DNA of 64,000 bases from Candidatus Limosilactobacillus merdavium (lineage in GTDB: Bacteria > Bacillota > Bacilli > Lactobacillales > Lactobacillaceae), in NCBI GenBank assembly GCA_018883805.1, contig JAHLFK010000002.1, positions 16,657 to 80,656 on the forward strand. The letters run 5' to 3'. How positions within the stretch are numbered: position 1 is the stretch's first letter; every line of letters begins with the position of its first letter. The translations under genes were made by a program, and so were the position numbers. Positions 15,761 through 39,358 of this stretch are shown here, in pieces. Under the pieces are notes generated by a model. It was given only the letters and a program-made list of their open reading frames with translations, searched no databases and had not been told where the DNA came from.

Positions 15761-15819
15761 GTACTATTGACAAAGTAAAATATTGAGTGTAACATGCATG
15801 ACAATATCAAAAAACGAAG

Positions 15820-16066
15820 AACAGACTAGTAAAGAATAAATTAACTCTAAAGAGAGTTCACGATGATGGAAAGTGAATGGGTTGGTTTTCTTGAATCACA
15901 TCTGCAAGTTGACTTGTTGAACTAATTAGGCAAGTCCGGGGTAGCCCGTTATAGCGCGGAGTTTAATTATTGAACTTACTGAGGTTATCTTTGTGAGAAG
16001 GTAACAACATGAGGTGGAACCGCGTAAAACGCCCTCATAGCCAGACAGGCTGTGAGGGCGTTTTTT
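15820..16066 (+). promoter_or_regulatory. T-box leader 1 (complete; specifier probably CAC/His)
   Basis: CAGA-ct-AGTA...AGAGAG...GGAAAG...GAAT-CAC-A-TCTG, T-box TGAGGTGGAACCGCG, terminator CGCCCTCATAGCCAGACAGGCTGTGAGGGCGTTTTTT. Confidence 0.85.
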
Positions 16067-16074
16067 GTTTCATC

Positions 16075-16192
16075 TGAAGGAAGATTAAGATTGAACTCCA
16101 TGAGGCAGTCGTTGTGAAGCGACTGTAAAATGAGGTGGAACCACGACTTGCTCGTCCTCTTAAACTAGTGATAGTTTAAGGGGACTTTTTGT
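16075..16192 (+). promoter_or_regulatory. T-box leader 2 (truncated: Stem III, antiterminator and terminator, no Stem I)
   Basis: CAGTCGTTGTGAAGCGACTG stem, T-box TGAGGTGGAACCACG, terminator GTCCTCTTAAACTAgtgaTAGTTTAAGGGGACTTTTT. Confidence 0.8.
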
Positions 16193-16225: not shown

Positions 16226-16873
16226 ATGTCGTTCAATTATATTTCTCAAATTTTACCATCACTTATTCAGGGTGCTGGATTAACATTACAAATCTTTTTC
16301 TGGACATTAATCGTATCTATTCCATTAGGGATTGTTGTTAGCTTAGGGTTAACTTCTAAGATCCAACCACTTAAATGGGTTCTTGAAGTTTATGTTTGGC
16401 TGATGCGGGGAACACCATTACTTTTGCAATTGATTTTTGTTTTCTATGGTCTCCCAATTATCGGCATTGTTTTCCAACGTTATGATGCTGCCTTAGTTGC
16501 ATTTATTCTTAACTATGCTGCTTACTTTGCAGAAATTTTCCGTGGTGGTTTTCAATCTGTTAGCGTTGGTCAATATGAAGCAGCAAAGGTACTTCGGTTG
16601 AACTACTGGCAAACAGTCCGGAAGATTATTATTCCACAAGTGGTTAAGATTGTTATCCCTTCAATCGGAAATGAAGTAATTAACTTGGTTAAGGATTCAT
16701 CATTAGTTTACGTTATCGGGTTAGGTGATCTTTTACGTGCCGGTAATGTAGCAACTTCACGTGATGTTACCCTTGTTCCACTTCTGTTAGTTGGTTTAAT
16801 TTACTTAATTCTTGTTGGTATTTGTACATTGGTATTACGCCAAGTCGAAAAGCGTTATTCATACTTTAAGTAG
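16226..16873 (+). CDS. Polar amino acid ABC transporter permease
   Basis: HisM/GlnP-like: MRGTPLLLQLIFVFYGLP, EIFRGGFQSVSVGQYEAAKVL. Confidence 0.93.
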   Translation: MSFNYISQILPSLIQGAGLTLQIFFWTLIVSIPLGIVVSLGLTSKIQPLKWVLEVYVWLMRGTPLLLQLIFVFYGLPIIGIVFQRYDAALVAFILNYAAYFAEIFRGGFQSVSVGQYEAAKVLRLNYWQTVRKIIIPQVVKIVIPSIGNEVINLVKDSSLVYVIGLGDLLRAGNVATSRDVTLVPLLLVGLIYLILVGICTLVLRQVEKRYSYFK

Positions 16874-16887
16874 GGGAGGAATCGCAT

Positions 16888-17535
16888 ATGCTAGAAGTTA
16901 AGAACTTAAAAAAGAGCTTTGGTGATCGAGTAATTCTTGATGACGTTAACTTAACAGTTAAGGATGATGAAATTCTTTGTATTGTTGGTCCTTCTGGTGC
17001 TGGTAAAACAACTCTTCTTCGTTGCATTACTGGACTTGATTCTCCCGATAGCGGAACATTTTTGATGGATGGCAAACCATTCGATCCCCAAGGTACAGGT
17101 GCATCTGATCGGGTAATCGGTGTTGTCTTTCAGGATTTTAACCTTTTTCCTAACCTTTCAGTAATGGAAAACATTACCTTAGCACCAACAATGGTTTTAA
17201 AGAAATCAAAAGAAGATGCTATTAAAGATGCACAGGAATTGCTTGAAGAACTAGGTCTTTCAACCAAAGGTGACCTTTATCCATGGCAACTATCTGGTGG
17301 TCAAAAGCAACGGGTTGCTATTGCGCGGGCACTCGCAATGAAGCCAAAAATTCTATGTTATGATGAACCTACATCAGCACTTGATCCAAACCTTCGTCAA
17401 GAAGTTGCTAATATCATTCTTTCATTAAAGAAGAGTGGGGTAACTCAATTAGTTGTTACTCACGACTTGGACTTTGCTGAAGAAATTGCAGATGATTTGC
17501 TTAAAGTTAACCCGATTGACCAGAGACAGAACTAA
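16888..17535 (+). CDS. Polar amino acid ABC transporter ATPase
   Basis: GPSGAGKTTLLRC, LSGGQKQRVAIARALAMKPKILCYDEPTSALDP. Confidence 0.93.
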   Translation: MLEVKNLKKSFGDRVILDDVNLTVKDDEILCIVGPSGAGKTTLLRCITGLDSPDSGTFLMDGKPFDPQGTGASDRVIGVVFQDFNLFPNLSVMENITLAPTMVLKKSKEDAIKDAQELLEELGLSTKGDLYPWQLSGGQKQRVAIARALAMKPKILCYDEPTSALDPNLRQEVANIILSLKKSGVTQLVVTHDLDFAEEIADDLLKVNPIDQRQN

Positions 17536-17544
17536 GGTTAGGGA

Positions 17545-18396
17545 GTGGTGTTTGTGAGAAAAATTAAATATTGGCTGGTATTATTAATTTTGATTGCTCC
17601 AGTCTTTGTCCTTAGTGGCTGCGAAAATGTTATTCAACGGGCTAATACTCAGGATACCTGGAATCGGATTGAAAGACGAAAACGGGTTGTGATCGGTTTA
17701 GACGATAGCTTCGTACCAATGGGCTTCCGGCAAAAGAACGGCAAGCTAGTGGGCTATGATGTTGATCTTGCCCGGGCCGTATTTAAGCAATATGGAATTA
17801 AGGCTGACTTTCAACCAATTGATTGGTCAATGAAGGAAACCGAGTTAAAAAATGGAACGATCGATCTCTTATGGAATGGGTATTCAATTAATGCCAGCCG
17901 TAAGAAGAAAGTTGCCTTCAGTCGTCCATACTTAAAGAATGAACAGATTTTAGTTACTAAAAAGGCTTCTAAGATCATGAACTTTAATGACATGAAGGGG
18001 AAGGCATTAGGGGTTCAAAATGGTTCAACTGGTTTAACCGCATTAGATGAGCGGCCAAAAGTTCTTAAAGATTTAATTAGGAACAAGAAACCTGTCCTTT
18101 ACGATACTTTCCCAGATGCCTTTATCGATTTAAATGCTAACCGGATCCAAGGAATTTTAATGGATCAGGTATATGCGGATTACTACATTAAGCACCAAAA
18201 GAATAGTTCTTCTTACCGAACTTATACTAGTAAGGCCTTACCTGCTGAATATTATGCGGTAGGGATGCGTAAGGGTGATAAGACTCTTCGCCAAAAGATT
18301 AATAAGGGCCTTGGTCGCTTACAGAAAAATGGTGAATTGAAGAAGATTAACCAAAAGTGGTTTGGCGAAAATAGTAATTACTTAGGTGCAGAATAA
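17545..18396 (+). CDS. Amino acid ABC transporter substrate-binding lipoprotein
   Basis: Lipobox LSGC; RKRVVIGLDDSFVPMGF, GYDVDLARAV. Confidence 0.92.
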   Translation: MVFVRKIKYWLVLLILIAPVFVLSGCENVIQRANTQDTWNRIERRKRVVIGLDDSFVPMGFRQKNGKLVGYDVDLARAVFKQYGIKADFQPIDWSMKETELKNGTIDLLWNGYSINASRKKKVAFSRPYLKNEQILVTKKASKIMNFNDMKGKALGVQNGSTGLTALDERPKVLKDLIRNKKPVLYDTFPDAFIDLNANRIQGILMDQVYADYYIKHQKNSSSYRTYTSKALPAEYYAVGMRKGDKTLRQKINKGLGRLQKNGELKKINQKWFGENSNYLGAE

Positions 18397-39109: not shown

Positions 39110-39149
39110 TCTTGTGGGAATTATTAGTTATAATATGACTCGTTTGGGA

Positions 39150-39358
39150 CATACTATTTAGAATTACTTTTTCAGAAACAACTGGGTTGATGAGACAGTT
39201 GATTGTGTTCTAGTTAGGGCTACCCATTCGTAAAATTAGATATTAAACTTGCTAATAGTTAGCAAGAAATAAGAGGTTAACGAAATCCATCGTTGCAATC
39301 AGAGTGGTACCGCGTCAGTTCGGCGTCTCTGAAAGCAGGGATGGATTTTGTTTTTGGA
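39150..39358 (+). promoter_or_regulatory. T-box leader (probably Ala) upstream of alaS
   Basis: GTTAGGGCTACCC (candidate GCT specifier), T-box AGAGTGGTACCGCG, CGTCTCTGaaagCAGGGATG hairpin then T-rich; upstream of alaS. Confidence 0.8.

Follow-up and report, generated by a model that had tools for sequence, protein, structure and literature searches.

The leader of an amino acid ABC transporter operon in Candidatus Limosilactobacillus merdavium is probably a histidine T-box in which a single decoder, made up of Stem I and the Stem II elements, serves two discriminator/terminator modules in series. It lies in a 64,000 nt stretch of contig JAHLFK010000002.1, called here the window; coordinates are those of the window and all features are on its forward strand. 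The second unit lacks a Stem I, and opens with a strand, a'', that can re-pair with the linker hairpin of the first unit. The resulting a.a'' helix is strongly supported by comparison of Lactobacillales His leaders. On the best reading, unit 2 would read the anticodon via the Stem I of unit 1. The discriminators, the terminators and the a.a'' helix with its conservation are described here from computational analysis.

Unit 1 is a full member of the class-I transcriptional T-boxes, with Stem I, specifier, Stem II region, Stem III and antiterminator. It gives a full-length match to RF00230 at 15808-16039 (model positions 1-219, 121 bits, E = 3e-26, gathering threshold 93). Upstream there is a sigma-70-like promoter at 15767-15795 (TTGACA-17-TAACAT), scoring 10/12 in a consensus scan, which by itself is no evidence of function. 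In the RF00230 alignment the specifier at 15897-15899 is CAC, and we therefore read the operon as a histidine transporter. The T-box(His)-hisYZX operons of Lactobacillales agree with this reading (PMC9413887). In unit 1 a linker hairpin of 8 bp (15959-15977) separates the CGTTA element from Stem III and comprises strand a (15959-15966), loop b (15967-15969) and strand a' (15970-15977); the hairpin is paired in relatives also. A IIA/B pseudoknot involving the linker was sought by eye and not found. Stem III (15984-16005) is present in both the minimum free energy and centroid structures, and is followed by the T-box motif GGTGGAACCGCG (16013-16024) and terminator 1 (16026-16066), which has a 17 bp stem (16026-16064) and a T tract.

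The second T-box motif, GGTGGAACCACG (16134-16145), occurs 121 nt after the first. The interval is occupied by terminator 1, strand a'' (16089-16099) and a second Stem III (16105-16126, 9 bp with a GUGA loop), leaving no space for Stem I. The motif is contained within antiterminator 2 (16132-16159), which has helices A1 (16132-16135/16156-16159) and A2 (16143-16146/16152-16155). Terminator 2 (16154-16190) has a 14 bp stem (16154-16185) and a T tract, and shares 16154-16159 with the antiterminator, so that the two structures are mutually exclusive. Unit 2 alone matches only positions 161-216 of RF00230 (26.6 bits, E = 3e-4 per genome), and with no Stem I or specifier of its own it is not a complete T-box. 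It does have the parts of a class-I discriminator, i.e. the T-box bulge, helices A1 and A2 and a Stem III preceded by purines and followed by AA, all apparent in both sequence and covariation, together with the competing terminator. Folding z-scores are −7.7 for unit 1 and −5.3 for unit 2, and a terminator scan recovered both terminators, each with its T tract, where 0.3 would be expected in shuffled sequence. The leader differs from a standard class-I T-box in having one Stem I for two discriminators, and in the re-pairing strand at the start of unit 2. With one Stem I, two discriminators and a terminator for each, it has the layout of the partially tandem T-boxes. The initial annotation had described a complete T-box followed by a second unit with Stem III and terminator and without Stem I, and our RF00230, folding and terminator analyses bear out both the description and the coordinates.

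Downstream of the leader are genes for an amino acid ABC transporter permease (16226-16873; PF00528, HEQRo permease family TIGR01726), the transporter ATPase (16888-17535; PF00005) and a family-3 solute-binding protein (17545-18396; PF00497). The permease shares 96% identity with its L. vaginalis counterpart (locus L188). The window contains two other T-boxes, both single. One at 538-757 precedes valS (133 bits), and one at about 39132-39333 precedes alaS (59 bits, under the Rfam threshold).

The two-unit layout is widely conserved. A DNA search matched the leader region in 52 of 54 genomes of the genus, and 51 of the 52 leaders recovered have two T-box motifs. Two motifs are also present in 44 of 56 leaders sampled through the Lactobacillaceae, which were chosen by permease homology, blind to the second unit. 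Spacing between the motifs in relatives is mostly 99-136 nt. The strict pattern GAAnCAC(A/G) is found at the place corresponding to the specifier in 135 of 177 relatives, and CAC is retained in several others. A pattern scan of 84,980 genomes for two motifs gave at least 118 stretches; the matches listed include Lactobacillaceae, Enterococcus, Tetragenococcus, Leuconostoc, Clostridia, Veillonellales, Alicyclobacillus and Chloroflexi. One stretch (L265) was dropped as a false positive of the pattern scan, since it came from a tRNA region. L. vaginalis and L. urinaemulieris have a second dual-discriminator T-box 5' of a family-3 binding protein gene (L191 and L236). This is the same kind of locus as L077 and L078, and the L077 specifier appears by eye to be CAC. 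On a Veillonellales MAG contig (L213), a pair of dual-discriminator T-boxes lies within 2 kb, close to a gene for a branched-chain amino acid binding protein.

By the covariation test, unit 2 is a functional RNA. In 93 diverse His leaders, 96.7% of the cells of Stem III-2 and antiterminator 2 are paired (A1 99.7%, A2 94.9%), and 13 of the 17 pairs exhibit changes on both sides, including all nine of Stem III-2. The covariation score is 0.72, compared with 0.24 for shuffled alignments and 0.15 or less when the strands are slid. For terminator 2 in the same leaders, 92.8% of cells are paired and the score is 0.52, against 0.23 when shuffled. The initial annotation had asked whether homologous leaders would reveal random decay of the second unit; since Stem III-2, antiterminator 2 and terminator 2 all covary, this is rejected at the level of sequence conservation. 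A related idea is that the leader descends from a full tandem T-box whose second Stem I was lost, and that the remnant is now decaying. The units are indeed homologous in order and spacing, each having an a-type strand, purines, Stem III and a T-box motif. Yet every helix of unit 2, and a.a'' also, covaries strongly, and the arrangement has been retained through Lactobacillaceae, Enterococcus, Tetragenococcus and Leuconostoc, so a decaying remnant is scarcely credible.

Strand a'' resembles a', with which it has in common the sequence AACT and the spacing to Stem III, and it is complementary to a, loop b and outer bases. In the window it can form 11 bp with 15958-15968, overlapping strand a and loop b, and in Lactiplantibacillus-type leaders the two strands are exact reverse complements over 15 bases (GGAGTTTAGTGATAA and TTATCACTAAACTCC). 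Across 135 leaders the a.a'' duplex has a mean energy of −18.8 kcal/mol when strands from the same leader are paired, compared with −10.0 kcal/mol when they are swapped between species. The longest ungapped helix has a median length of 12 bp for a.a'' and 7 bp for a.a'. The pairing score of a.a'' exceeds that of a.a' in 130 of 135 leaders, and two or more loop nucleotides pair with a'' in 107 of 134.

We counted a.a'' pairs on a re-registered set, the first alignment having placed strand a one column off between genera. When a.a' and the purines preceding Stem III alone set the register, independently of a'', 80.7% of a.a'' cells are paired over all rows, against 37-48% for slid strands and no more than 64% in any of 500 shuffles. 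In 74 clean rows, from which about 17 with a clearly wrong a' register were left out by eye from their 5' letters, pairing rises to 86.8% and 12 of 13 pairs change on both sides. The covariation score of these rows is 0.605 compared with 0.194 for shuffled alignments, and none of 500 shuffles scored as high. The clean rows were picked by visible success of the register, so the all-row value of 80.7% is the conservative one. Related sequences share history, and shuffles alone therefore overstate the significance; stronger evidence for the helix comes from the slid controls and from changes that span genera.

It might be argued that a'' is complementary to a simply because it arose by duplication of a', the pairing having no present function. 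The AACT sequence and Stem III spacing common to a' and a'' are what such a history would leave. However, the loop positions are out of reach of a', and together with the outer positions that a' leaves unpaired they are 67-81% paired with a'' and covary. Moreover, inheritance would not account for a.a'' outscoring a.a' in nearly all leaders. We regard an inherited complementarity devoid of function as very improbable, and inheritance as its only source is rejected by the loop-position pairing.

Folding calculations, which leave out tRNA and tertiary contacts, favor exchange of the strands. In the window the isolated a.a' hairpin has an energy of −4.4 kcal/mol, and a.a'' joined by a short loop has −10.4 kcal/mol. 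Before a'' has been made, the pairing probability of a.a' is 0.98; once unit 2 is complete it is 0.00, and that of a.a'' is 1.00, and the loop closed by a.a'' contains the folded terminator 1. Over the 93 leaders with unit 2 complete, the mean probabilities are 0.63 for a.a'' and 0.12 for a.a', and a.a'' exceeds 0.5 in only 61 of them, a wrong register in some rows being partly responsible for the shortfall. The distance from the core of a'' to the purines of Stem III-2 is equal to that from a' to the purines of Stem III-1, in gap-free columns. Since the spacing to Stem III is equal, formation of a.a'' would put discriminator 2 at the site of discriminator 1 relative to Stem I. According to the initial annotation the second unit has no usual means of reading an anticodon, which is wrong or at least incomplete given that a'' pairs with the linker hairpin of unit 1. 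Of the options it listed, reliance on tRNA held by unit 1 and a double gate are the best.

These properties suggest the following model, in which the hand-off of the tRNA, the order of events and the physiological gain are those that we infer. Uncharged tRNA-His held by Stem I would stabilize antiterminator 1, allowing the polymerase to pass terminator 1. The loop and the additional outer G-C pairs would then let the emerging a'' invade the linker hairpin, and both a' and discriminator 1 would be displaced. Discriminator 2 would come to lie next to the tRNA bound by Stem I, where discriminator 1 had been, and the charging state would be tested again, such that only a second answer of uncharged would clear terminator 2 and permit transcription of the histidine transporter operon. 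Terminator 1 could refold without harm once the polymerase has moved on, and this would help to release the 3' end of the tRNA from discriminator 1. For an uptake operon, which is dispensable, the benefit would be a tighter OFF state together with a sharper response. We would give roughly even odds that one Stem I, possibly with the same tRNA molecule, is read twice through co-transcriptional, toehold-like strand displacement and that this is the general mode of action of partially tandem T-boxes. Single-molecule studies of glyQS are relevant to the timing, since in that system the discriminator may stay locked on the tRNA for more than 1 h (PMC5951919). Displacement could therefore be slow relative to transcription.

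One alternative would make terminator 2 a fail-safe that catches polymerases leaking through terminator 1. The same Stem I-bound tRNA would open antiterminator 2, and a.a'' would act as a compacting scaffold, with neither displacement nor a second test. This fits all the sequence data, including the two strong terminators in series and the conserved spacing of unit 2 to Stem III. Against it, a passive scaffold has no need for a strand that competes with a' for the same partner and reaches into the loop, and folding prefers a.a'' over a.a'. In addition, one tRNA 3' end cannot serve two discriminators simultaneously. We consider a passive fail-safe unlikely, though the most plausible of the alternatives, and prefer two successive tests through a single decoder.

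The bases that contact the tRNA bear on whether both units address the same tRNA. In the window the variable N base of the bulge is A in both units, where C73 of tRNA-His would call for G. Of 167 two-motif His leaders, unit 1 has A in 140 and G in two, and unit 2 has A in 96, C in 40, T in 23 and G in eight. In tRNA-His, G-1 lies opposite C73, and a G-1:C73 pair may leave just CCA free, which could explain the departure from the N rule. Variation of the N base of unit 2 in the His leaders might mean that this unit is less specific. In non-His leaders the N base agrees between the units (Fisher p = 2e-5), which supports, at the level of sequence, the two units addressing the same tRNA there. 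Three leaders with a Trp specifier (TGG) have C in both units, and tRNA-Trp has G73, which is matched by a bulge C. The G-U wobble at the foot of A2 has been described as a steric sensor of aminoacyl-tRNA. In the window this position is G-C in unit 1 and A-U in unit 2, so neither unit has the wobble. Over 93 leaders it is G-C in 49, A-U in 25 and G-U in 18 for unit 1, and A-U in 59, G-U in 20 and G-C in 14 for unit 2, where it is always a standard pair. Most His leaders have G-C or A-U at the A2 base in place of the wobble, which is described as conserved (PMC7583486).

The UGG of the bulge is intact in 167/167 two-motif His leaders. Taken with the variable N of unit 2, this could be what is expected if unit 2 sensed the uncharged 3' end of any tRNA from solution, as a decoder-free gate responding to general starvation. 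The initial annotation had offered sensing of the free NCCA end as one option. This is disfavored by the single-molecule glyQS work, in which tRNA failed to bind the antiterminator by itself; capture needed Stem I, which on its own retained the tRNA for about 4.5 s (PMC5951919). It is disfavored too by the cognate-matching base in both units of the dual Trp leaders, and by the wider agreement of N outside His. Variability in the His leaders need not mean lost specificity, given that in unit 1 too the N base fails to complement C73. A general gate also leaves the covarying a'' unaccounted for, and altogether we think it improbable.

Strand sharing is firm in the Lactobacillales His leaders and, on the sequence comparisons, suggestive elsewhere. 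A generic complementarity test on the non-His leaders gave a mixed result, with a mean z of −0.85 and a quarter below −2. Strand a'' is clear in the second Lactobacillaceae locus (L191, L236 and L245). It is clear too in Syntrophomonas and Peptococcaceae leaders (L206, L225, L226, L241 and others), where GTATCC faces GGGGATAT with similar spacing to Stem III. By the generic complementarity test the other non-His leaders gave no clear signal, the shared strand being absent or unclear in those of Alicyclobacillus and Chloroflexi. In the trpE leader of a Thermosediminibacterales MAG (L198), a short unit 2 carries ATGCCATC, which by eye is complementary to the 5' strand of Stem III-1; there the strand may be shared via Stem III and not the linker hairpin.

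The genes under this layout also form a pattern. Non-His targets among the matches listed include DAHP synthase, trpE, trpD, ilvD, ilvB, ilvN, lysA and carA, as well as branched-chain amino acid ABC components, sodium symporters, permeases, an aminotransferase and PaaK-like ligases. None of the 30 downstream proteins scanned among the matches listed (29 named, one without a match) is an aminoacyl-tRNA synthetase. By comparison, tRNA ligases follow 62% of T-boxes in a genome survey (PMC2494555), and synthetases make up 11 of the 20 other T-box targets examined in this genome (leuS, valS, pheS, ileS, tyrS, argS, serS, trpS, alaS, glyQ and aspS). This strongly hints that double gating is reserved for genes whose expression can be shut off completely, i.e. 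those of transport and biosynthesis. We put it no higher because the contrast is drawn from the matches listed in one pattern-based scan.

Vitreschak et al. (RNA, 2008) reportedly named a class of T-boxes with duplicated terminator-antiterminator elements, and for that reason we do not claim the layout as new. A 2020 review recognizes partially tandem T-boxes as a kind, with mode of action listed as unknown (PMC7583486). A 2022 comparative study found His T-boxes to be mostly single, with tandems only in five Enterococcus species (PMC9413887). The strand-sharing helix and the exchange model were not found in the literature searched. To our knowledge, what is new here is a'' with its a.a'' helix, and the strand-exchange model. 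The leader resembles the partially tandem T-boxes in having two antiterminator/terminator modules on one Stem I. It also resembles the full tandem T-boxes and tandem riboswitches (PMC12452182, PMC9481103), where gating in series is expected to sharpen the response. In those full tandem systems, however, each unit has its own aptamer, whereas the leader in the window has a single decoder.

The conserved a'' supplies a specific and testable mechanism for partially tandem T-boxes, by which one ligand-binding domain could drive two expression platforms in series. If true, this would be a modular RNA device that makes two successive tests of charging with a single ligand-recognition domain. It would link the layout to transport and biosynthetic genes that can be shut off fully, and not to those of tRNA synthetases. 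A second checkpoint, unreported in the 2022 study (PMC9413887), would be present in the His-transporter leaders of most of the Lactobacillaceae sampled.
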